Source: Motilibacter rhizosphaerae (lineage in GTDB: Bacteria > Actinomycetota > Actinomycetes > Motilibacterales > Motilibacteraceae). From it: DNA of 64,000 nucleotides. Positions 24,124-39,832 of this stretch are shown piece by piece. Below the pieces are notes generated by a model, which worked only from the letters and a program-made list of their open reading frames with translations, was not told the DNA's origin and ran no database searches. The stretch is taken from assembly GCF_004216915.1 (NCBI RefSeq), contig NZ_SGXD01000001.1, positions 682,001 to 746,000 on the forward strand, given 5' to 3'. A program made the translations under genes and the position numbers. The first letter of the stretch is position 1, and each line of letters opens with the position of its first letter.

Positions 24124-24381
24124 CTACTGCGCGGGCGGCGGCGGCCCGGGGCGGCCCTTGGCGATGCGCGCGGTCAGCGCGGCGATCGCGTCCTCGGGCG
24201 GGGCGGCGGCGGCGATGTTGGACGCCTGCAGCTCGCGGTAGACCTCCTCGCGGTGCACCTGGACGGTGCGCGGGGCGTCGATGCCGATGCGGACGACGTC
24301 ACCCCGCACCTCGAGGACGGTGATGGTGATGTCGTGCCCGATGATGACGCTCTCGCCGGCACGGCGGCTCAGGACCAGCAC
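24124..24381 (-). CDS. csrA: Carbon storage regulator CsrA (RNA-binding translational repressor)
   Basis: 85-aa CsrA. The protein begins [15 protein letters not shown] when read from the GTG at 24381, which is preceded by GGGAGGG; a TTG four codons earlier is less likely. The RNA-contact residues L4 and R44 (VHREEVY) are conserved. A Pro-rich tail of about 20 residues follows the usual fold. CsrA dimers bind A-N-GGA hairpin loops in mRNA leaders. Such loops occur in all five flagellin leaders in this window, and fliW lies next to it, as in the Bacillus circuit. It is the last gene of the flgN-flgK-flgL-fliW-csrA operon. Confidence 0.92.
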
Positions 24382-24454
24382 GGGCCCTCCCAACGGTCGC
24401 AGACGCGGGCGCCTCCGTGCGCCCGTCGCTCCGCATCCTAGGGACGCGGGGCCC

Positions 24455-24862
24455 TCAGGGCTGGAGCGGCGCGCGCAGCGGCAGGTCGGAGCCGGAGAGG
24501 ACGACCTGGGCGGCCTGGTGCGTGCGGGCGTGCACGACGATGGGGGCGAGCAGGTTGGCGGTCGCGTCCTCGATGCCCGTGGTGCAGGTGACGAGGAGCA
24601 GGACGAGCGCGTCCTCCTCGGACTCGAGGCCCAGCTCGGTCACCGCGTCGTCCGGCAGCTCGGGGGAGTAGTCCGGGAAGAAGGGCGCGGGCGGGACGGC
24701 CAGGAAGCGCAGCCCCTCGTCCTCGATCGAGCGCAGCGCGTAGACCAGGCCGGCGTCGTCGAGGGCGACGAGCGCGAAGTGCCGGGCCTCCGGGAAGCCC
24801 GGGAGGCCCTGCGAGAACACGAGCGCCCCGTCGAGGCCCTGCTGCACGGTCGGCACTGTCAT
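24455..24862 (-). CDS. fliW: Flagellar assembly factor FliW (CsrA antagonist)
   Basis: 135-aa beta-barrel protein that binds either flagellin or CsrA and so relieves CsrA repression when flagellin is exported. The family pattern is visible: [20 protein letters not shown] near the start, [20 protein letters not shown] in the middle, and [20 protein letters not shown] near the end. The ATG at 24862 begins MTVPTVQQ. It sits 43 bases after flgL and 73 bases before csrA, in the same order as in Bacillus. Confidence 0.92.
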
Positions 24863-29749: not shown

Positions 29750-32491
29750 ATGACGAGCGACCTCGTGCTCAACCTCGGCGCGTCGGCCGAACCGAAGCTC
29801 ACCTGGCTCGGCCCGATGCGCAACTTCAGCGGCTTCGGCGACGAGATGCGCCACTACGTGCTGGGGCTGCGCGACCGCGGGCACGCCGTGCGCGCCCTGC
29901 CCGTCGCGGACTCGCCGAAGTACATGGCCGGGCTGTCGCCCACGCTGCGGGCGCGCCTCGACGCCGCCGTCGCCGAGCCGGCCCAGGACTGGCCCGTCCT
30001 CGTCCAGCACCTCCAGCCGCACACCCTGCGCCACTACGCGGGCGTCGGCTACTACGTCGGCCGCACGATGTTCGAGACGACGTCGCTGCCCGCCGGCTGG
30101 GCCGAGCAGGCCAACGGCATGGACGAGCTCTGGGTGCCGAGCGAGTTCAACGTCCAGACCTTCCGCGACGCCGGCGTCACCATCCCGATCCACGTCGTGC
30201 CGGAGGGCGTCAGCACCACCCGCTTCCGCCCGGGCCTGCGCCCCCTCGTCACCGAGGGCCTGCGCGGCACCGTCTTCCTCTCCGTCTTCGAGTGGAGCTC
30301 GCGCAAGGGCTGGGACGTGCTGCTGCGCGCCTGGGCCGAGGCGTTCGGGCCCGAGGACGACGTCACGCTGCTGCTCCGCTCCTACCCGCTGAGCCACACC
30401 TCCGCGCGGCAGGACGAGATCAGCCAGCGCGTCGACGCGTACCTCGCCACGCTGGGGCGCACCCGCGCGGACGTCGCCCCGATCGTCGTGCTCGACCAGT
30501 TCGTGGACGACCGGGAGATGCCGCGGCTCTACGCCTCCGCCACCGCGTACGTCGGTCCCAGCCGCGGCGAGGGCTGGGGGCGGCCCTACCTCGAGGCCAT
30601 GGCCACCGGCCTGCCGACCATCGCCACGCGCTGGAGCGGCAACCTCGCCTTCATGGACGACACCAACTCCCTGCTCGTCGACATCGACGGGCTGGAGACG
30701 GTCCCCGCCGACGACGAGATCGCGTTCTTCCGCGGGCAGCAGTGGGCCAGCCCCAGCGTCGCGAGCCTCGTCGGGCACCTGCGCTGGGTCGCCGCCGAAC
30801 CCGCGGCCGCCGCCGCGCTCGGCGCCCGGGCCCGTGAGGACGTCGTCGCGCGCTGGACCTGGGAGAAGGCGGTCGACGTCGCCGAGCAGCGCTTCCTCGC
30901 GATCCGCGAGCACCTCACCCGGCCGCGCCCGCACGCCCCCGGCGGCCCGCGCGTGCGCTGGGTCGGCGAGCAGTTCCAGCACACCAGCCTCAGCCTCGTG
31001 AACCGCGCCGTCGTGAGCCGCCTGCTCGACCGCGTCGACGTCGAGTGCCGCACGGTCGAGCGGCCGGCCGTCGACCCGTACGCACCGGAGCTCGCCGCCC
31101 TCGCCTCCACCGTCGGCCCCGTGCTCGACGGCGACCCGCAGGTCGAGGTGCGGCACCAGTGGCCGCCGGACTGGTCAGCCCCGGAGCACCAGGGCGCGCT
31201 CGTCGCCATCCAGCCGTGGGAGTACGGCGGCCTGCCCGACGCCTGGGTCGAGGGCATGGCCGCGGTGGACGAGGCCTGGGTGCCGACGACCTTCGTGCGC
31301 GACTGCTACGTCGCGTCCGGCGTCCCGGCAGCGAAGGTCCACGTCGTCCCCAACGGCGTCGACGTCGACGCCTTCTCCCCGCAGGGCGAGGCGCTGGCGC
31401 TGCGCACCACGAAGGGCACGAAGCTGCTCTTCGTCGGCGGCACCATCCACCGCAAGGGCATCGACGTGCTGGTCGCCGCGTACCTGCGCGAGTTCACCCG
31501 CGACGACGACGTCTGCCTCGTCGTGAAGACCTTCGGCTCCGGCTCGGTCTACCGCGGGCAGGACATGGACGAGCGGCTCCGCCAGCTCGCCGCCGACCCG
31601 TCGCTGCCCGAGATCGAGGTCATCGACCGCGAGCTCGAGCCGCACGAGCTGCCGATGCTCTACCGCGCCTGCGACGTGCTGGTGCACCCGTACCGCGGGG
31701 AGGGCTTCGGCCTGCCCATCGCCGAGGCCATGGCGTGCGGGCTGCCCGTCGTCGTCACGGGGGCCGGCGCCGCCGTGGACTTCTGCGACGCGGAGACGGC
31801 GTACCTCGTCCCGGCGGAGCCGCAGGCCCTCTCGGGCACGGGGCTGCCGGAGAGCCGGACGGGCTACTTCCTGTACGAGCCCGACGGCGACGCGCTGGCC
31901 CGCACGCTGCGCCACGTCGTCGAGCACCCGGCGGAGGCCGCCGTGCGTGCGGCCGCCGGCCGCTCGCGCATCGTCCGTGACTTCAGCTGGGAGCGCGTCG
32001 CCGGCCTCGTGGCAGGCCGCCTCGCGGCCCTGGCCGCCGCGCCCGCGACGCGCCTGCGCCCCCTGGGCCTGGAGCTCGACACGCAGGGCAAGCACACCTT
32101 CGGGCTGCTGCCCGACTGGACCACCTCCGCCCCGGACGAGGCGCTGCGCACGTTCGTCGCGGCGTTCACGCCCGCGGACGAGGTCTGCCTCGCCGTGTGG
32201 ATCGACCCGTCGTCCTCCGACGACGAGCTGGACCGCATCGAGGAGCGGCTGCGCGCGGCGGTCGAGGCGGGGACGGCCGACGGGCACGAGTGCCCGGACA
32301 TCCTGCTCGTCACCGACGCGCTGCGCCCGGGCGAGCTGGACCGCTTCTACCGCTCGGTCGACGTCGCCCTGACCTCCGCGCCGGCGCAAGCGGCGCTCGC
32401 GACCTCCGTGGGCACCCCGCTGCTCGTGCGCCCCGGGCAGGAGGCGCTGCGCGCGTCGCTGGCCCAGCGCCGCGTCCCCGCGGGGGTCTGA
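29750..32491 (+). CDS. Large glycosyltransferase with two GT4-type domains
   Basis: 913-aa cytoplasmic protein containing two GT-B fold glycosyltransferase units. The first (about 1-385) has the E-x7-E motif in EGWGRPYLEAMATGLPTIAT. The second (about 395-765) has KVHVVPNGVDVDAFSP, LLFVGGTIHRKGIDVLV and EGFGLPIAEAMACGLPVVVT. A C-terminal tail of about 140 residues resembles half of another nucleotide-sugar domain. It lies between fliA and the flagellins under a FliA-type promoter, so flagellin O-glycosylation is the likely role. Donor and acceptor are unknown. Confidence 0.85.
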   Translation: MTSDLVLNLGASAEPKLTWLGPMRNFSGFGDEMRHYVLGLRDRGHAVRALPVADSPKYMAGLSPTLRARLDAAVAEPAQDWPVLVQHLQPHTLRHYAGVGYYVGRTMFETTSLPAGWAEQANGMDELWVPSEFNVQTFRDAGVTIPIHVVPEGVSTTRFRPGLRPLVTEGLRGTVFLSVFEWSSRKGWDVLLRAWAEAFGPEDDVTLLLRSYPLSHTSARQDEISQRVDAYLATLGRTRADVAPIVVLDQFVDDREMPRLYASATAYVGPSRGEGWGRPYLEAMATGLPTIATRWSGNLAFMDDTNSLLVDIDGLETVPADDEIAFFRGQQWASPSVASLVGHLRWVAAEPAAAAALGARAREDVVARWTWEKAVDVAEQRFLAIREHLTRPRPHAPGGPRVRWVGEQFQHTSLSLVNRAVVSRLLDRVDVECRTVERPAVDPYAPELAALASTVGPVLDGDPQVEVRHQWPPDWSAPEHQGALVAIQPWEYGGLPDAWVEGMAAVDEAWVPTTFVRDCYVASGVPAAKVHVVPNGVDVDAFSPQGEALALRTTKGTKLLFVGGTIHRKGIDVLVAAYLREFTRDDDVCLVVKTFGSGSVYRGQDMDERLRQLAADPSLPEIEVIDRELEPHELPMLYRACDVLVHPYRGEGFGLPIAEAMACGLPVVVTGAGAAVDFCDAETAYLVPAEPQALSGTGLPESRTGYFLYEPDGDALARTLRHVVEHPAEAAVRAAAGRSRIVRDFSWERVAGLVAGRLAALAAAPATRLRPLGLELDTQGKHTFGLLPDWTTSAPDEALRTFVAAFTPADEVCLAVWIDPSSSDDELDRIEERLRAAVEAGTADGHECPDILLVTDALRPGELDRFYRSVDVALTSAPAQAALATSVGTPLLVRPGQEALRASLAQRRVPAGV

Positions 32492-32499
32492 GCAGCGGG

Positions 32500-32528
32500 C
32501 TTTAGCCCGGACGGGTGAGTGCCGATGC
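32500..32528 (+). promoter_or_regulatory. Possible FliA-type promoter of the GT2 gene
   Basis: CTTTAG followed by GCCGATGC with one base more spacing than usual. The -10 ends seven bases before the ATG at 32536. This is weaker than the other sites because the -35 deviates. Confidence 0.35.
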
Positions 32529-32535
32529 ACTCCCC

Positions 32536-34689
32536 ATGAGACGCAGTCCGGCCTCCGTCGTCGTCGTCGCTGCTCCCGGCCCCGAGGGCCGCGCCCGTGC
32601 GGACTTCCTGGTCCGCGGGCTGCGGCCCTCGCTGGGCGTCCGCGACGAGGTGGTGCTCGTCGCGGACGGGACGCCCGCGGGCGACGCGCTCGCCGCGGTC
32701 GGCGGGGGCTCGCTCGCCGCCCGGCGCGACACGGGCGTCCGGCTCGCCACCCGCGACGTCGTCGTCCTCGTCTGCGCCGACTCGGTCGCGCCGAAGCACG
32801 CCATCGACCCCCTCGTCGCCGCGCTCGACTCCGGCGCGATCGCCGCGGGACCCGTCCACGACCTGGGTACGGGCCGGCAGGGCCTGACGCCGCCGCTGCC
32901 CGCGCTGGCCTCCGCGCAGGAGCTGCGCGAGTGGACCGCGCGCTGGCACGACGAGCACCGCGGCGGCCGGCTCGGGGTCGAGGACCTCGGGGAGGGCGTG
33001 CTCGCCGCGCGCCGCGCGCACCTGCAGGCCGTCGGCTGCCGCGAGGGCGTCGTCCAGCGGCTGCTGGCGGCGGAGGGCGCTGGCGCCCTGGGCCCGGCGG
33101 TCGTCGTGCAGGACTCGGTGTGGCACCACCGCGGAGCCCCGGGCTGCGCGCTCCCGCCCTCCCCGCAGCCGCTGCTCAGCATCGTCATGATCGTCAAGGA
33201 CGAGGAGAAGGCGCTGCCCTCCTCGCTCGCCTCGCTCGCCGGCCTCGGGGACGAGGTCGTGGTCTACGACACCGGCTCGAGCGACGGCACGGTCGAGATC
33301 GCGCGGGCGATGGGCGCCCGGGTCGTGCAGGGCTACTGGGACGACCACTTCGGCGACGCCCGCAACCGCGGCCTCGCGCACGCGCGCGGCCGCTGGTTCC
33401 TCCAGGTCGACGCCGACGAGCAGTTCACCGGCGACGCCGCGAGCCTGCGCGCGCAGCTCGAGGTCGCGACCGACCCGACGTTCATGGTCGACGTCGAGAG
33501 CCAGACCGAGAGCGGGTTCGGCACGACGTACTGCACGCCGCTGCGCCGGATCGGGCTGCGCGAGGACTGCTGGTTCCTCGGCCGGCTGCACGAGCAGATC
33601 GCGCTGCGGGCCGGGGGCGTCCCGCCCTCGAGCGTCCTGCGCGACGGCCGCCTGCTGCACTCGGGCTACCTCGCGAGCACCGCGGCGGACAAGGACAAGC
33701 GGACCCGCAACCTGCGCCTGGCCGAGCTCGCGACCGCCGACGAGGCGGGGGACCTGCCGCGCGGGGTCGTGCTGTGCAACCTCGCCCGCTCGCAGCGCTT
33801 CGCCGGCGACAACGAGGGCGTGCTCGCCACCGCCGCCGAGGCGTGGGAGGCCGAGCACACGAGCGTGAGCCGGCGCGACCTCTGCGCCACGGCCGCGACG
33901 GCCGCCGCCGTCCTCGAGCGCTACGCCGAGGCGGAGCTCTGGTGCGACCGGCTCGAGGAGCAGGGCGTCCCGCTCCGCGCCGCCGAGACGCGCGCCGTCG
34001 TGCTCCTCGCCCAGGAGCGCTGGCTCGAGTGCCTCGAGGCCGTGCGGCGCATCCCGGACAGCGGGTGGGACCGCGGCGATGTGCGCGAGATCAAGCGCTC
34101 CGGCTCGATCGTGGTCGAGCTCAAGGCCCTGGTCTCGCTCGGCCGCTACGACGAGGCGGTCGACCGCCTCCTCCGCGTGGTGCGTGCCGGCGAGCTCAAC
34201 GTCTGCCTGCCGGACGTGCTCGAGCTCTTCCACTCCGCCCCCGCACGCCTGCGCGAGTACGCGACCGACCTCCCCGAGGAGCTGCTGCTCCCCACGCTCG
34301 CCGAGGTCCGCACCGTGCCCGTCGACCGGGCCGACACCTTCCTCGACGCGCTCTACACCGCCGGGCGCCGCCAGGCCGCCGTCGTGGCCGCCGCCGCCCC
34401 CGTCGCCCCGCACCTCCCGCTGCCGCGTGCCGTCGAGTGGAGCCTGCGGCTGCGCGCGGCCGGCGACCCCGGCTCCTGCCCGCTCGTGCGCATCGCCCGC
34501 GCGCCGGAGCGCAGCCCCCGCGACCGCGTGCTCGCGGCGGCGCTCGTCATGGAGTCGTTCGCGGACGAGACCGTGCTGCCGCAGTTCCTCGAGGCGGCCG
34601 AGCTCGTGCCGGACGCCCAGGCCGACGCCGTGGGCAAGGAGCTGCGCCTGCTGGCGCCCCTCACGGCTGCCCGCCTGCTCGCCGTCTGA
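32536..34689 (+). CDS. GT2-family glycosyltransferase with long helical-repeat C-terminus
   Basis: 717-aa protein if read from the ATG at 32536 (724 from the GTG at 32515). An N-terminal GT2-like remnant of about 200 residues precedes the active domain, which has SIVMIVKDEEKALPSSLASL, VVVYDTGSSDGTVEIARAMG, DARNRGLAHARGRWFLQVDA with the DxD site DADEQF, and CWFLGRLHEQI. The second half is helical and TPR-like (NLARSQRFAGDNEGVLATAA). Proteins of this build glycosylate repeated protein acceptors. The position directly upstream of five flagellin genes suggests flagellin as substrate. It is paralogous to the smaller enzyme at 42859-43860. Confidence 0.85.
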   Translation: MRRSPASVVVVAAPGPEGRARADFLVRGLRPSLGVRDEVVLVADGTPAGDALAAVGGGSLAARRDTGVRLATRDVVVLVCADSVAPKHAIDPLVAALDSGAIAAGPVHDLGTGRQGLTPPLPALASAQELREWTARWHDEHRGGRLGVEDLGEGVLAARRAHLQAVGCREGVVQRLLAAEGAGALGPAVVVQDSVWHHRGAPGCALPPSPQPLLSIVMIVKDEEKALPSSLASLAGLGDEVVVYDTGSSDGTVEIARAMGARVVQGYWDDHFGDARNRGLAHARGRWFLQVDADEQFTGDAASLRAQLEVATDPTFMVDVESQTESGFGTTYCTPLRRIGLREDCWFLGRLHEQIALRAGGVPPSSVLRDGRLLHSGYLASTAADKDKRTRNLRLAELATADEAGDLPRGVVLCNLARSQRFAGDNEGVLATAAEAWEAEHTSVSRRDLCATAATAAAVLERYAEAELWCDRLEEQGVPLRAAETRAVVLLAQERWLECLEAVRRIPDSGWDRGDVREIKRSGSIVVELKALVSLGRYDEAVDRLLRVVRAGELNVCLPDVLELFHSAPARLREYATDLPEELLLPTLAEVRTVPVDRADTFLDALYTAGRRQAAVVAAAAPVAPHLPLPRAVEWSLRLRAAGDPGSCPLVRIARAPERSPRDRVLAAALVMESFADETVLPQFLEAAELVPDAQADAVGKELRLLAPLTAARLLAV

Positions 34690-34752: not shown

Positions 34753-34779
34753 TCAAGTGGAGCAGCGTTGCGCCGATGA
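34753..34779 (+). promoter_or_regulatory. FliA-type promoter of fliC1
   Basis: TCAA, a 15-base spacer, then GCCGATGA. It is the best match of all flagellin promoters here. The predicted start is about 50 bases before the ATG, just upstream of the leader hairpin. Confidence 0.85.
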
Positions 34780-34790
34780 GGTGAATGTCC

Positions 34791-34816
34791 CGCCCGGACC
34801 ACGGACGGACCGGGTG
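34791..34816 (+). promoter_or_regulatory. Leader hairpin with ACGGAC loop, predicted CsrA site (fliC1)
   Basis: A ten-pair stem (one A-A mismatch) closes a six-base loop ACGGAC at 34801-34806. The loop GGA lies 34 bases before the ATG. The loop matches the CsrA consensus A-N-GGA presented in a hexaloop. Confidence 0.7.
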
Positions 34817-34836
34817 CCCTACCCCAGGAGGAAGTC

Positions 34837-35655
34837 ATGTCGCTCCGCGTCAACCAGAACATCGCGGCCATGAACGCCTACCGCAACCTCTCGGTGACGG
34901 ACGGCCAGATGAGCAAGTCGCTGGAGAAGCTCTCCAGCGGCTACCGCATCAACCGGGCAGCTGACGACGCGGCCGGCCTGTCGATCTCGGAGAACCTGCG
35001 CTCGCAGGTCGGTGGGCTCAAGGTCGCGGTCCGCAACGCGCAGGACGGCATCTCGGTCGTGCAGACGGCTGAAGGTGCGCTGACCGAGACCCACGCGATC
35101 CTGCAGCGCATGCGTGACCTCGCCGTCCAGGCGTCGAACACCGGCTCGCAGGACTCGACGGCCCGCGCGGCCGCCGACACCGAGGTCACCCAGCTGACGG
35201 CGGAGCTCGACCGCATCGCGAGCTCGACGAAGTTCGGCAGCCAGGTGCTGCTGAGCGGCTCGTTCTCGGGTGCGTTCCAGGTCGGCGCCAACGCCGGTGA
35301 CCTCATCACGATCTCGGTCAACACGCCGATGACCTCGGCCGGGCTGGGCATCAGCGGCGTCAGCATGCTGAACTCGGCCTCCGCCTCGCTCGCCAGCATC
35401 GATTCCGCCATCGCCGCAGTCTCGACGACCCGAGCCAACCTCGGTGCGTACCAGAACCGCTTCGAGCACACGATCAACAACCTCAACGTCGCGGTCGAGA
35501 ACCTCTCGGCCTCGGAGTCGCGCATCCGCGACACCGACATGGCGCAGGAGATGGTGTCCTTCACCCGCTCGCAGATCCTCACCCAGGCCGGCACGTCGAT
35601 GCTGTCCCAGGCGAACCAGTCGACGCAGGGCGTCCTCAGCCTCCTGAAGGGCTAG
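34837..35655 (+). CDS. fliC1: Flagellin, copy 1
   Basis: 272-aa filament protein consisting of D0/D1 helices and a very short middle, so no D2/D3 surface domains. The N-terminus is MSLRVNQNIAAMNAYRNLSV, with the conserved SGYRINRAADDAAGLSISEN. The C-terminus has NRFEHTINNLNVAVENLSAS, ESRIRDTDMAQEMVSFTRSQ and ends SLLKG. It differs from the other four mainly in the middle and in VNQN rather than VNTN near the start. It has its own promoter, hairpin leader, AGGAGG site and terminator. It has the best promoter of the five, so it may be the main filament protein. Confidence 0.97.
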   Translation: MSLRVNQNIAAMNAYRNLSVTDGQMSKSLEKLSSGYRINRAADDAAGLSISENLRSQVGGLKVAVRNAQDGISVVQTAEGALTETHAILQRMRDLAVQASNTGSQDSTARAAADTEVTQLTAELDRIASSTKFGSQVLLSGSFSGAFQVGANAGDLITISVNTPMTSAGLGISGVSMLNSASASLASIDSAIAAVSTTRANLGAYQNRFEHTINNLNVAVENLSASESRIRDTDMAQEMVSFTRSQILTQAGTSMLSQANQSTQGVLSLLKG

Positions 35656-35679
35656 TCCCCGCCTGAGCTCGTAGCACCC

Positions 35680-35715
35680 CCGAAGGGGCCCGGTCTGCTG
35701 ACCGGGCCCCTTCGG
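35680..35715 (+). terminator. Terminator of fliC1
   Basis: A perfect 15-bp stem (CCGAAGGGGCCCGGT) with loop CTGCTG, 24 bases after the stop codon. Confidence 0.85.
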
Positions 35716-35800
35716 CGTGCCCGGCCGGCCTGGGCGCAGCTCCTCCGGGAGAGGATCACCCGGGTGCAGCAGCGACGGGGGTGGCGCAGTGGGCCACTGC

Positions 35801-35837
35801 GCCGATCTGGAGTGCGATCGACCTAGGGAAGGGTCGA
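35801..35837 (+). promoter_or_regulatory. fliC2 -10 element and CsrA-type leader hairpin
   Basis: GCCGATCT at 35801-35808 lies 55 bases before the ATG, like the other flagellin -10 elements; no TCAA -35 is visible. The hairpin at 35818-35837 has a seven-pair stem (one T-G wobble) and loop AGGGAA at 35825-35830, fitting A-N-GGA with the GGA 36 bases before the ATG. Confidence 0.6.
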
Positions 35838-35862
35838 GCAGTCAGCTCCAGGAGGACCCGTC

Positions 35863-36678
35863 ATGTCGCTTCGCGTGAACACCAACATCGCGGCGATGAA
35901 CGCGTACCGGAACCTGCAGGGTACGGACTCGCAGATGAGCAAGTCGCTGGAGAAGCTCTCCAGCGGCTACCGCATCAACCGCGCCGCCGACGACGCGGCC
36001 GGCCTCTCCATCTCGGAGAACCTGCGCTCGCAGACCGGTGGCCTCAAGGTCGCCGTCCGCAACGCGCAGGACGGCATCTCGGTCGTGCAGACGGCGGAAG
36101 GTGCGCTCACCGAGACCCACGCGATCCTGCAGCGCATGCGCGACCTCGCCGTGCAGTCGTCCAACACCGGCTCGCAGGACTCGGCCGCGCGCACCGCTGC
36201 CGACACCGAGGTCACGCAGCTCTCGGCCGAGCTGGACCGCATCGCGAGCACGACGAAGTTCGGCAGCCAGGCGCTGCTGACCGGCTCGTTCTCGGGCACG
36301 TTCCAGGTCGGTGCCAACAGCGGCGAGACCATCACCGTCTCGGTCACCACCGCCATGTCGTCCTCGGGCCTGGGCGTCAGCGGCGTCAGCCTGCTGAACT
36401 CCGCGTCCGCGGCGATCTCGAGCATCGACTCGGCGATCTCGGCCGTGTCGACCGCTCGCGCGAACCTCGGTGCGTACCAGAACCGGTTCGAGCACACCAT
36501 CAACAACCTCAACGTCGCGGTCGAGAACCTCTCGGCCTCGGAGTCGCGCATCCGCGACACCGACATGGCGTCGGAGATGGTGTCCTTCACCCGCGCGCAG
36601 ATCCTCACCCAGGCCGGCACCTCGATGCTGTCCCAGGCGAACCAGTCCAGCCAGGGCGTGCTCAGCCTCCTGCGCTAG
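35863..36678 (+). CDS. fliC2: Flagellin, copy 2
   Basis: 271-aa flagellin with the same short D0/D1-only plan. It is closest to copies 4 and 5: the middle reads SSTKFGSQALL with SGSFSGTFQVGANSGETITV in that part of the chain. The C-terminus reads MASEMVSFTRAQILTQAGTS and ends SLLR. It is preceded by CAGGAGGA and followed by a hairpin terminator, so it is expressed as a single gene. The promoter lacks a recognisable -35, suggesting lower or different expression from copy 1. Confidence 0.97.
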   Translation: MSLRVNTNIAAMNAYRNLQGTDSQMSKSLEKLSSGYRINRAADDAAGLSISENLRSQTGGLKVAVRNAQDGISVVQTAEGALTETHAILQRMRDLAVQSSNTGSQDSAARTAADTEVTQLSAELDRIASTTKFGSQALLTGSFSGTFQVGANSGETITVSVTTAMSSSGLGVSGVSLLNSASAAISSIDSAISAVSTARANLGAYQNRFEHTINNLNVAVENLSASESRIRDTDMASEMVSFTRAQILTQAGTSMLSQANQSSQGVLSLLR

Positions 36679-36722
36679 CAGGTAGCTGCCGCTCCACGCG
36701 GACCACCCCGTCCCCCGGAGGA

Positions 36723-36758
36723 GGTACGCGGCAGGGCCCTCGCGGCCCTCCGCGTACC
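36723..36758 (+). terminator. Terminator of fliC2
   Basis: The arms GGTACGCGG and CCGCGTACC, with an inner AGGGCC/GGCCCT stem, form about 15 pairs around a CTCGC loop. Confidence 0.75.
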
Positions 36759-36773
36759 CCTCGCGGGGGAAGA

Positions 36774-36799
36774 GCGTCACTCGGCCGGATGAGTGACGC
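36774..36799. repeat. Inverted repeat upstream of fliC3
   Basis: Perfect nine-base arms, GCGTCACTC and GAGTGACGC, are separated by eight bases. It ends about 30 bases upstream of the fliC3 -10 element and is a candidate activator site. Related single GCGTCAC-C/T-C half-sites occur before fliC1, fliC4, fliC5 and flgB. Confidence 0.5.
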
Positions 36800-36827
36800 C
36801 CATTCGGCGCAGCCACACCGCGGTCCT

Positions 36828-36865
36828 CCCGATGAGGAGGTCAGCTGACCCACGGACGGGTCGGT
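36828..36865 (+). promoter_or_regulatory. fliC3 -10 element and CsrA-type leader hairpin
   Basis: CCCGATGA at 36828-36835 lies 55 bases before the ATG. The hairpin at 36844-36865 has an eight-pair stem and loop ACGGAC at 36852-36857, with the GGA 36 bases before the ATG. The ribosome site AAGGAGG (36875-36881) itself also reads A-N-GGA, a possible second CsrA contact. Confidence 0.7.
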
Positions 36866-36889
36866 GACCATCTCAAGGAGGAACCCCCC

Positions 36890-37705
36890 ATGTCGCTCCG
36901 CGTGAACACCAACATCGCCGCGATGAACGCGTACCGCAACCTCACCGCGACCGACTCGATGATGAGCAAGTCGCTCGAGAAGCTCTCCAGCGGCTACCGC
37001 ATCAACCGGGCAGCTGACGACGCGGCCGGCCTGTCGATCTCGGAGAACCTGCGCTCGCAGGTCGGTGGCCTGAAGGTCGCGGTCCGCAACGCGCAGGACG
37101 GCATCTCGGTCGTGCAGACGGCGGAAGGTGCGCTGACCGAGACCCACGCGATCCTGCAGCGCATGCGTGACCTCGCCGTCCAGGCGTCGAACACCGGCTC
37201 GCAGGACTCGACGGCGCGGACCGCCGCCGACACCGAGGTCACCCAGCTCACGGCGGAGCTCGACCGCATCGCCACCTCGACGAAGTTCGGCAACCAGGTC
37301 CTGCTCGCGGGCTCGTTCTCCGGTGCCTTCCAGGTCGGCGCCAACGCCGGCGAGCTGATCACCATCTCGGTGAGCACCCCGATGACGGCGTCCGGCCTGG
37401 GCGTCAACGGCGTCAGCCTGCTGAACTCGGCCTCGTCCGCGCTCGCCAACATCGACTCGGCGATCTCGGCCGTGTCGACCGCTCGCGCGAACCTCGGTGC
37501 CTACCAGAACCGCTTCGAGCACACGATCAACAACCTCAACGTCGCCGTGGAGAACCTGTCCGCGTCGGAGTCGCGCATCCGTGACACCGACATGGCGCAG
37601 GAGATGGTGTCCTTCACCCGGTCGCAGATCCTCACCCAGGCCGGCACCTCGATGCTGTCCCAGGCGAACCAGTCGAGCCAGGGCGTGCTCAGCCTGCTGA
37701 AGTAG
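36890..37705 (+). CDS. fliC3: Flagellin, copy 3
   Basis: 271-aa flagellin, most like copy 1 in its middle (SSTKFGSQ region reads TSTKFGNQVLLAGSFSGAFQ) and in the MAQEMVSFTRSQ end. The D0/D1 helices are almost identical to the other copies. It ends SLLK. The AAGGAGG ribosome site is followed by a run of C before the ATG. It forms its own transcription unit, closed by the most classical terminator of the set. Confidence 0.97.
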   Translation: MSLRVNTNIAAMNAYRNLTATDSMMSKSLEKLSSGYRINRAADDAAGLSISENLRSQVGGLKVAVRNAQDGISVVQTAEGALTETHAILQRMRDLAVQASNTGSQDSTARTAADTEVTQLTAELDRIATSTKFGNQVLLAGSFSGAFQVGANAGELITISVSTPMTASGLGVNGVSLLNSASSALANIDSAISAVSTARANLGAYQNRFEHTINNLNVAVENLSASESRIRDTDMAQEMVSFTRSQILTQAGTSMLSQANQSSQGVLSLLK

Positions 37706-37726
37706 CACGCGCTCCTCCTGAACCCT

Positions 37727-37768
37727 CCCTGACGGGGCCCGGCACATGCCGGGCCCCGTCAGGGTTTT
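37727..37768 (+). terminator. Terminator of fliC3
   Basis: An 18-bp perfect stem with a very short loop is followed by TTTT, a classical intrinsic terminator and rare at this GC content. Confidence 0.92.
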
Positions 37769-37830
37769 CGTGCCTCTCGAGAGCCACGGGTGCGGTGCTC
37801 GGCGTCACCCGTACGGCCGTCACCCGAGTG

Positions 37831-37870
37831 GCCCGCACCCGTTCAGCCCGCACCCGTTCAGCCCGCACAC
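37831..37870. repeat. Short direct repeats upstream of fliC4
   Basis: CCCGCACCCGTTCAG occurs twice in tandem and a third partial copy follows. The fliC4 upstream region is longer than those of its siblings because of this block. The function is unknown. Confidence 0.5.
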
Positions 37871-37915
37871 AGGCGGATGAGCGATCGGGATTCCTCGCAT
37901 CCAGACCCTCACGGC

Positions 37916-37952
37916 TCCGATGGAATGGCAACCGACCCACGGACGGGTCGGT
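37916..37952 (+). promoter_or_regulatory. fliC4 -10 element and CsrA-type leader hairpin
   Basis: TCCGATGG at 37916-37923 lies 53 bases before the ATG. The hairpin at 37931-37952 has a perfect eight-pair stem (ACCGACCC) and loop ACGGAC at 37939-37944, with the GGA 35 bases before the ATG. The ribosome site is AAGGAGG. Confidence 0.72.
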
Positions 37953-37975
37953 AGACACTCAAGGAGGAACCCCCC

Positions 37976-38791
37976 ATGTCGCTTCGCGTGAACACCAACA
38001 TCGCGGCGATGAACGCGTACCGCAACCTCAACGCGACCGACTCGCAGATGAGCAAGTCGCTCGAGAAGCTCTCCAGCGGCTACCGCATCAACCGCGCCGC
38101 CGACGACGCCGCGGGCCTGTCGATCTCGGAGAACCTGCGCTCGCAGGTCGGTGGCCTCAAGGTCGCCGTCCGCAACGCGCAGGACGGCATCTCGGTCGTG
38201 CAGACGGCGGAAGGTGCGCTCACCGAGACCCACGCCATCCTGCAGCGCATGCGCGACCTCGCCGTCCAGTCGTCCAACACCGGCTCGCAGGACTCGGCCG
38301 CCCGCACCGCTGCCGACACCGAGGTCACGCAGCTCACGGCCGAGCTGGACCGCATCGCGACGACGACGAAGTTCGGCAGCCAGGCGCTGCTGACCGGCTC
38401 GTTCTCCGGCACGTTCCAGGTCGGCGCCAACAGCGGCGAGACCATCACCGTGTCGGTCACCACGGCCATGTCGTCCTCGGGCCTGGGTGTCGGCAGCGTC
38501 AGCCTGCTGAACTCCGCGTCCGCCGCCATCTCGACCATCGACTCGGCGATCTCCGCCGTGTCGACCGCCCGTGCGAGCCTCGGTGCGTACCAGAACCGCT
38601 TCGAGCACACCATCAACAACCTCAACGTCGCGGTCGAGAACCTCTCGGCCTCGGAGTCGCGCATCCGCGACACCGACATGGCGGCCGAGATGGTGTCCTT
38701 CACCCGCTCGCAGATCCTCACCCAGGCCGGCACCTCGATGCTGTCCCAGGCGAACCAGTCGAGCCAGGGCGTCCTCAGCCTCCTGCGCTAG
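37976..38791 (+). CDS. fliC4: Flagellin, copy 4
   Basis: 271-aa flagellin of the short type. The middle matches copies 2 and 5 (TTTKFGSQALLTGSFSGTFQ), with a distinctive GLGVGSVSLLNSASAA stretch. The C-terminus has MAAEMVSFTRSQ and ends SLLR. Ribosome site, leader hairpin and terminator are its own. The near-identity of the ends across all five copies suggests recent duplication or gene conversion. Confidence 0.97.
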   Translation: MSLRVNTNIAAMNAYRNLNATDSQMSKSLEKLSSGYRINRAADDAAGLSISENLRSQVGGLKVAVRNAQDGISVVQTAEGALTETHAILQRMRDLAVQSSNTGSQDSAARTAADTEVTQLTAELDRIATTTKFGSQALLTGSFSGTFQVGANSGETITVSVTTAMSSSGLGVGSVSLLNSASAAISTIDSAISAVSTARASLGAYQNRFEHTINNLNVAVENLSASESRIRDTDMAAEMVSFTRSQILTQAGTSMLSQANQSSQGVLSLLR

Positions 38792-38812
38792 TAGGCAGTA
38801 GCGACGCGACCA

Positions 38813-38847
38813 CTGCGGGGCCCGGCACCATGTGCCGGGCCCCGCAG
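38813..38847 (+). terminator. Terminator of fliC4
   Basis: A perfect 16-bp stem (CTGCGGGGCCCGGCAC) with a CAT loop, 21 bases after the stop. Confidence 0.88.
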
Positions 38848-38954
38848 TCGTCGTTCCGGCTGCGCCGGCGCCGGCGTCACCCACCCGGCCCAGCAGGGGC
38901 CTGAGATCCCACTCGTGTGCAGCAAGCCACGGACTGGGGACGTGCGGATGAGGT

Positions 38955-38992
38955 GCCGATGAGGAGGTCACTCCACCCATGGAAGGGTGGGG
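38955..38992 (+). promoter_or_regulatory. fliC5 -10 element and CsrA-type leader hairpin
   Basis: GCCGATGA at 38955-38962 lies 55 bases before the ATG, but no TCAA -35 is at the right distance. The hairpin at 38971-38992 has an eight-pair stem (one T-G) and loop ATGGAA at 38979-38984, with the GGA 36 bases before the ATG. The ribosome site is AAGGAGG. Confidence 0.68.
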
Positions 38993-39016
38993 ATCGTCCT
39001 CAAGGAGGGACCCGCC

Positions 39017-39832
39017 ATGTCGCTTCGCGTGAACACCAACATCGCGGCGATGAACGCGTACCGGAACCTGCAGGGTACCGATTCGCAGATGAGCAAGTCG
39101 CTGGAGAAGCTCTCCAGCGGCTACCGCATCAACCGGGCCGCGGATGACGCCGCGGGCCTGTCCATCTCGGAGAACCTGCGCTCGCAGACCGGGGGCCTCA
39201 AGGTCGCCGTCCGCAACGCGCAGGACGGCATCTCGGTCGTGCAGACGGCTGAAGGTGCGCTCACCGAGACGCACGCCATCCTGCAGCGCATGCGTGACCT
39301 CGCCGTCCAGGCGTCGAACACGGGCTCGCAGGACTCCTCCGCCCGCACCGCTGCCGACACCGAGGTCACGCAGCTCTCGGCGGAGCTGGACCGGATCGCG
39401 ACGACGACGAAGTTCGGCAGCCAGGCGCTGCTGACGGGCTCGTTCTCCGGCACGTTCCAGGTGGGTGCCAACAGCGGCGAGACCATCACCGTCTCGGTCT
39501 CGACGGCCATGTCGTCCTCGGGCCTGGGTGTCAGCAGCGTCAGCCTGCTGAACTCGGCGTCCGCGGCGATCGCCAACATCGACTCGGCGATCTCCGCCGT
39601 GTCGACCGCCCGCGCGAACCTCGGTGCGTACCAGAACCGGTTCGAGCACACCATCAACAACCTCAACGTCGCCGTTGAGAACCTGTCCGCGTCGGAGTCG
39701 CGCATCCGTGACACCGACATGGCGTCGGAGATGGTGAACTTCACCCGCGCGCAGATCCTCACCCAGGCCGGCACGTCGATGCTGTCCCAGGCGAACCAGT
39801 CGAGCCAGGGCGTCCTCAGCCTCCTGCGCTAG
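39017..39832 (+). CDS. fliC5: Flagellin, copy 5
   Basis: 271-aa flagellin. I chose the ATG at 39017 because it follows AAGGAGG and gives MSLRVNTNIAAMNAYRNLQG like the others; an earlier GTG adds ten unrelated residues. It is closest to copy 2. A difference is MASEMVNFTRAQ (Asn in place of Ser) near the C-terminus. It ends SLLR. It is followed by a long hairpin and then the FlaG-like/fliD genes. Confidence 0.97.
   Translation: MSLRVNTNIAAMNAYRNLQGTDSQMSKSLEKLSSGYRINRAADDAAGLSISENLRSQTGGLKVAVRNAQDGISVVQTAEGALTETHAILQRMRDLAVQASNTGSQDSSARTAADTEVTQLSAELDRIATTTKFGSQALLTGSFSGTFQVGANSGETITVSVSTAMSSSGLGVSSVSLLNSASAAIANIDSAISAVSTARANLGAYQNRFEHTINNLNVAVENLSASESRIRDTDMASEMVNFTRAQILTQAGTSMLSQANQSSQGVLSLLR

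Follow-up and report, generated by a model that had tools for sequence, protein, structure and literature searches.

In Bacillus and Campylobacter, CsrA and its antagonist FliW are proven to control flagellin. The RNA side of such control is a hexaloop of the form ANGGAN, seen in the nuclear magnetic resonance structures of RsmE, and the best-studied RNAs that carry it are gamma-proteobacterial small RNAs and mRNAs (PMC7652899). The flaA leader of Campylobacter jejuni has footprinted ANGGAN hexaloops whose function is proven by footprint and mutation; two hairpins with ANGGA loops are present, the second on the ribosome site, with 21 nucleotides (nt) between the GGAs (PMC4894983). Here we analyze a stretch of 64,000 nt from the actinobacterium Motilibacter rhizosphaerae (contig NZ_SGXD01000001.1, positions 682,001 to 746,000, hereafter the window), in which five tandem flagellin genes, fliC1 to fliC5, are each preceded by a leader hairpin with such a loop. 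We put at roughly 0.88 the probability that CsrA and FliW control all five flagellins through these hairpins and the ribosome sites behind them.

For Actinobacteria, a 2008 article on Kineococcus radiotolerans, as far as its accessible part goes, proposed CsrA control of flagellin, in an organism with csrA in its motility island, from a 9/12 match to the BS2 site of hag at the ribosome site of one gene (PMC2587704). A 2015 survey placed Actinobacteria among the phyla that may use FliW (PMC4682653), and actinobacterial flagella are the subject of a 2023 paper whose accessible part names CsrA and FliW solely as queries for its searches (PMC10746217). In the literature searched we found no description of the hairpin or of its covariation in Actinobacteria.

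The minimum-free-energy structure of every flagellin leader in the window includes a hairpin with an A-N-GGA-N hexaloop (Table 1), and the GGA of that loop starts 34, 36, 36, 35, and 36 nt before the ATG of fliC1 to fliC5, respectively. An earlier note on this DNA had claimed five such hairpins at a GGA-to-ATG distance of 34–36 nt, and coordinates, folds, and direct measurement bear out both claims; the stems of 7–10 pairs that it gave are present, with an upper figure that is slightly generous (we count 9 pairs around one A-A mismatch, then 7, 7, 8, and 8). The same note had held that stem bases differ between the copies with compensation, and we indeed find two-sided changes at three stem positions among the five (G-C to A-U, G-C to C-G, and C-G to U-A). 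Folding energy provides no evidence, being unexceptional for DNA so rich in GC (z from +0.8 to −1.6); the significance of the hairpins comes instead from their recurrence across relatives. No leader hairpin has a credible match in Rfam, either at the gathering score or at E up to 1, and the matches drawn in by relaxed thresholds were set aside as chance hits to microRNAs and small nucleolar RNAs.

Table 1. Features of the window discussed in the text, in window coordinates; bit scores refer to a covariance model of the flagellin leader.
Feature	Position	Strand	Remarks
fliC1, flagellin	34837..35655	+	
fliC2, flagellin	35863..36678	+	
fliC3, flagellin	36890..37705	+	
fliC4, flagellin	37976..38791	+	
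fliC5, flagellin	39017..39832	+	
fliC1 leader hairpin	34791..34816	+	loop ACGGAC 34801-34806; 49.8 bits
fliC2 leader hairpin	35815..35840	+	loop AGGGAA 35825-35830; closing pair U-G; 32.7 bits
fliC3 leader hairpin	36842..36867	+	loop ACGGAC 36852-36857; 47.6 bits
fliC4 leader hairpin	37929..37954	+	loop ACGGAC 37939-37944; 48.0 bits
fliC5 leader hairpin	38969..38994	+	loop ATGGAA 38979-38984; 40.6 bits
CCGAT box (sigma-28-like -10 element), fliC1	34773..34777	+	22-28 nt before each loop, fliC1 to fliC5
CCGAT equivalents, fliC2 to fliC5	35802, 36829, 37917, 38956	+	
fliC3 ribosome site AAGGAGG (A-N-GGA)	approx. 36873..36883	+	proposed second CsrA contact
fliW	24455..24862	-	135 amino acids; PF02623, E 4.9e-33; directly upstream of csrA
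csrA	24124..24381	-	GTG start; 85 amino acids; PF02599, E 4.5e-23; L4 and R44; FliW-type C-terminal extension
csrA-leader hairpin GGGCGC[ACGGAG]GCGCCC	24403..24428	-	37 nt before csrA start, between fliW and csrA

Recurrence was assessed over 80 genome loci carrying genes related to the window flagellin, with leaders mostly from one class and genera that include Dactylosporangium, Actinoplanes, Planomonospora, Kineosporia, Geodermatophilus, Blastococcus, Nocardioides, Cellulomonas, Modestobacter, Georgenia, and Pseudokineococcus, among others. A loop-directed search found an ANGGAN hairpin in 106 of 109 flagellin leaders (window included). When the loop sequence was left free in an unsupervised scan, 97 of 107 non-redundant leaders had ANGGAN as their best hexaloop hairpin. 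Under a stem threshold 104 of the 107 carried it, compared with 0.46 on average and never more than 2 over 100 shuffled sets, and in the same leaders every other A-N-XYZ-N loop occurred at most once and the reverse-complement loop not at all. If loop size is freed as well, 42 leaders have ANGGAN as their top hairpin, a drop that arises because an A-U pair or neighboring bases often allow a smaller loop to be drawn about that GGA. A second covariance model, restricted to the hairpin, was searched over 1.07 Mb of the loci and gave 101 matches, almost all at flagellin leaders. The five window genes are close tandem paralogues, and recent duplication could have left them with a shared leader whose likeness means nothing; the hairpin is not a product of local duplication, however, being found in 104 of the 107 non-redundant actinobacterial leaders, and with stems that compensate even among the five and a loop that recurs across genera, families, and classes, we consider this explanation scarcely credible.

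An alignment of 96 hairpins with a 10-pair stem gives a covariation score of 0.534, compared with 0.151 for shuffled alignments and at most 0.17 when the pairing partners are slid. Two-sided changes occupy 243 cells of the alignment (108 when shuffled) and affect nine of the ten pairs, with G-U pairs also present, and the 96 hairpins display 57 distinct 7-nt left arms. Above this shifting stem, 95 of the 96 close the loop with C-G, the window's fliC2 hairpin alone having U-G, and the A and GGA of the loop are invariant; their invariance follows from selection of the aligned sequences, and the unsupervised scan of the 107 leaders gives the same result. The covariation check across related genomes that the earlier note had proposed thus returned a fixed loop on stems that drift with compensation, the opposite of what that note had set against its own prediction, namely relatives with csrA and fliW in which the loop is lacking and the stems drift freely. 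Loci of Geodermatophilus, Blastococcus, and Modestobacter (L016–L062) carry a conserved A-A or CA/CA mismatch two pairs below an intact loop.

The hairpins also hold a near-constant position relative to the promoter. Of 106 leaders, 83 have a CCGAT or CCGAA box 5′ of the loop, at an interquartile distance of 22–24 nt; given this near-fixed spacing, and taking the transcript start from the box, the hairpin should sit at about the 5′ end of the flagellin mRNA. A fixed distance from a promoter box would equally suit a DNA operator, an inverted repeat 3′ of the sigma-28-type promoter that is bound by a transcription factor, and inverted repeats are typical of operators. The six central bases are asymmetric and occur in a single orientation, however, the half-sites that an operator would conserve vary with compensation, and G-U pairs occur; the asymmetric, one-stranded loop and the G-U pairs argue for an RNA element rather than an operator, which we regard as extremely unlikely. 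Hairpins near the 5′ end are known to protect mRNA, and this position might alternatively speak for a generic structure that stabilizes or insulates the flagellin mRNA, or provides ribosome standby, with no protein reading the loop. Such a hairpin would have no need of an invariant A-N-GGA loop and C-G closing pair above a variable stem, and it leaves unexplained both the A-N-GGA bias of the ribosome site and the move of the loop onto that site in other classes (both described below); we judge it unlikely.

All five window flagellins have a GGA within the ribosome site, and in fliC3, fliC4, and fliC5 this site reads AAGGAGG and fits A-N-GGA, as the earlier note had stated. Over the loci, 81 of 103 flagellins (79%) have A at −2 relative to the GGA of the ribosome site, versus 73 of 338 other genes from the same loci (22%). 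Where −1 is not A, the figures are 24 of 24 flagellins and 45 of 223 other genes; the 24 come from several genera, with relatedness inflating the p-values. Hairpins presenting GGA in a loop of 5–6 nt at the ribosome site were found for 61 of 103 flagellins versus 19 of 279 other genes, and the spacing from one GGA to the other has a median of 30 nt and a minimum of 21 nt over all leaders. These biases support a second CsrA contact, as predicted, at the flagellin ribosome site.

A phylum-wide flagellin search extended the survey to other classes with 52 further non-redundant leaders. Of these, 27 have an ANGGAN hairpin upstream, on a stem of unrelated sequence (shuffled mean 0.6), the ribosome site itself lies inside an ANGGAN hexaloop closed by at least 3 pairs in 35 (1.7 with shuffled flanks; an example is GAGATC[AAGGAG]GATCTC), and 44 have one or both. 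From these leaders it follows that the GGA loop can be positioned upstream, on the ribosome site, or at both places.

The proteins required by the Bacillus and Campylobacter systems are encoded nearby, in a same-strand array flgK–flgL–fliW–csrA; profile matches and inspection of residues uphold the earlier note, which had placed fliW in the same island as a csrA with L4 and R44 intact. The window CsrA aligns with the Bacillus and Geobacillus proteins (chains of 1t3o and 5dmb) through residues 71–73, whereas matches to gamma-proteobacterial CsrA end at residues 53–56, so that by alignment it has a C-terminal extension of the FliW-binding type. With fliW in the window, and with FliW reported to shift the Bacillus hag leader, binding it weakly (PMC6529632), one might ask whether the loop is read mainly by FliW or some other RNA-binding protein. 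The CANGGANG hexaloop is the CsrA/RsmE element, the L4/R44 surface of the window CsrA is intact, and the affinity of FliW for the leader was reported as 500-fold weaker than for CsrA (PMC6529632); we hold a reader other than CsrA to be very unlikely.

In a sample of 395 genomes of the class, FliW was found in 51 and flagellin N-domains (hook protein FlgL included) in 59. Strong matches to the leader model (E ≤ 1e-6) occur in 38, of which 37 are fliW-positive, the remaining one being an assembly that is 80% complete. The fast model scan undercounts: the hairpin can be read directly in six fliW-positive genomes (G012, G022, G113, G220, G271, and G334), and a genome-level search at first missed the fliC2 leader, which was scored upon direct scanning of the window. 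Since hairpin-bearing genomes can score weakly or be missed, absence from the scan is no proof that the hairpin is absent. csrA is present in 46 of 50 genomes contributing loci, and another set of 80 genomes, most of them flagellated, has it in 76; a test of csrA presence against hairpin presence was dropped, as nearly all flagellin-bearing genomes have csrA. No hairpin precedes the flagellin homologues of G378 (L167) and G269 (L168), two complete large genomes of one genus that lack both csrA and fliW, an absence that is only suggestive, since these flagellins are probably foreign.

On the CsrA–FliW reading, which every testable consequence for the sequence (loop, stems, csrA and fliW, breadth) supports as the earlier note had predicted it, flagellin mRNAs would start near the sigma-28-type promoter and present a hairpin of the kind bound by CsrA/RsmE at about their 5′ end, with a second GGA in the ribosome site roughly 20–26 nt downstream. 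A CsrA dimer would place one face on the hairpin loop and the other on the ribosome site, blocking initiation of the five flagellins together, and FliW, freed on flagellin export, would take CsrA off as it does in Bacillus. Through a similar hairpin in the csrA leader, CsrA may in addition hold down its own production. This sixth hairpin, absent from the earlier list, is the fourth best window match of the hairpin-only model (25.0 bits, above fliC5 and fliC2) and makes autoregulation plausible in this strain, not as a conserved part of the system. The Nocardioides-type csrA genes (L053–L082) appear to be leaderless, with a −10-like TAnnnT box immediately before the start.

Several observations weigh against this reading. 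The hairpin is missing before a few flagellins in spite of csrA being present (L008:7001, L049:7001, L080, and, in the same-genus genome G046, one of its four). Flagellin, fliW, and csrA are found together so tightly that any association of hairpin with csrA is confounded by the presence of flagellin, and only two flagellin homologues were found in genomes without both csrA and fliW. Related sequences are not independent, which makes p-values optimistic. Within the window, the fliC1 and fliC2 ribosome sites (CCAGGAGG) do not match A-N-GGA, and pairing around the GGA of the ribosome sites is weak (1–3 pairs). As to autoregulation, an ANGGAN hairpin occurs in 8 of 58 csrA leaders, window included (0.25 when shuffled), its distribution is sporadic, and the csrA leader of a same-genus genome retains the stem with a loop lacking GGA. 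The flagellin at L049:7001 is a divergent one of Modestobacter that keeps the stem and has the loop ACGGCT, its GGA lost, unlike the two other flagellins of the locus.

Comparable elements precede other genes, whose names were read from translations. In two genomes of one genus a hairpin and CCGAT box precede flbD (L175 in G313, L176 in G048), which suggests it as a further candidate target of CsrA there. The same pair stands before a gene reading as fliS, the flagellin chaperone (L032:4423-4448), and a possible AGGGAC hairpin follows a CCGAT box before a chemotaxis receptor gene (L187, G271:C20:44473-44529). A mini-flagellin of 113–118 amino acids, comprising N- and C-terminal pieces only, has an intact hairpin leader and sits just 5′ of a full flagellin in two species (L177 in G336, L178 in G195); it may represent either a decaying copy or a decoy for FliW. 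Three further genes (L161–L163, in G259, G369, and G307) combine a flagellin-like start, MGLRI..S, with low-complexity sequence thereafter; L161 and L162 have an ANGGAN loop 5′ of this start, and the L163 genome contains a leader-model match. Targets beyond the flagellins in the window's own genome were rejected: the next leader-model matches (E 0.04–0.05) have no good ANGGAN loop, do not precede recognizable flagellar genes, and were treated as noise. Weak matches in the class genomes (E ~1e-5 to 1e-2) were likewise set aside, those inspected being a mixture of chance and a few plausible targets. Directly 5′ of the window flagellins, two large genes (29750–34689) resemble glycosyltransferases in translation and possibly act in flagellin glycosylation.

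The closest counterpart is C. jejuni flaA, with which the window shares a short sigma-28 leader, CANGGANG-like hexaloops, compensatory changes among species, and FliW as the antagonist (PMC4894983). Only the upstream hairpin is strong in the window, unlike in C. jejuni, and the second GGA is largely unpaired, whereas other actinobacterial classes show both hairpins as Campylobacter does; fliW and csrA are adjacent in the window and not in Campylobacter, and the main flaA there contrasts with five flagellins for which CsrA control is predicted from sequence. The Hag–FliW–CsrA system of Bacillus subtilis likewise has adjacent fliW and csrA, a CsrA with the FliW-type C-terminal extension, and two leader sites of which one covers the ribosome site; it differs in phylum, in flagellin number, and in stem sequences, which are independent of those seen here, where CsrA binding and the partner switch are predictions. 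The RsmE/CsrA element (PMC7652899) agrees in its loop and in the contacted A and GGA bases, although here there is one hairpin per flagellin leader; an antagonistic small RNA was not searched for. K. radiotolerans, also an actinobacterium, shares the csrA in a motility island and the proposed link from CsrA to flagellin, and the accessible part of that article makes no mention of a hairpin, covariation, fliW, or a survey (PMC2587704). The assignment of actinobacterial flagellin leaders to the known CsrA–FliW kind is strongly supported, and their function is predicted accordingly.

The flagellin brake of Bacillus and Campylobacter thus very probably operates in Actinobacteria too, judging from the leaders and gene content described here, and a proven circuit would extend to a whole phylum for which the literature we found offers only guesses. 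More tentatively, and with considerable doubt, we envisage a family of cis-regulatory RNAs, spread through the phylum and absent from Rfam, that couples flagellin synthesis to CsrA–FliW and to which some lineages may have added csrA, flbD (L175, L176), fliS (L032), and perhaps a chemotaxis receptor (L187), with the five window leaders acting in addition as a CsrA sponge. If true, such a sponge would couple all flagellins and free other targets, as reported for Campylobacter flaA. The hairpin would give motile Actinobacteria, for instance the zoospore-forming genera, a precise RNA element, and its covariance model can be used for finding further CsrA targets. The findings suggest that flagellated Actinobacteria inherited CsrA–FliW control of flagellin from their common ancestor.

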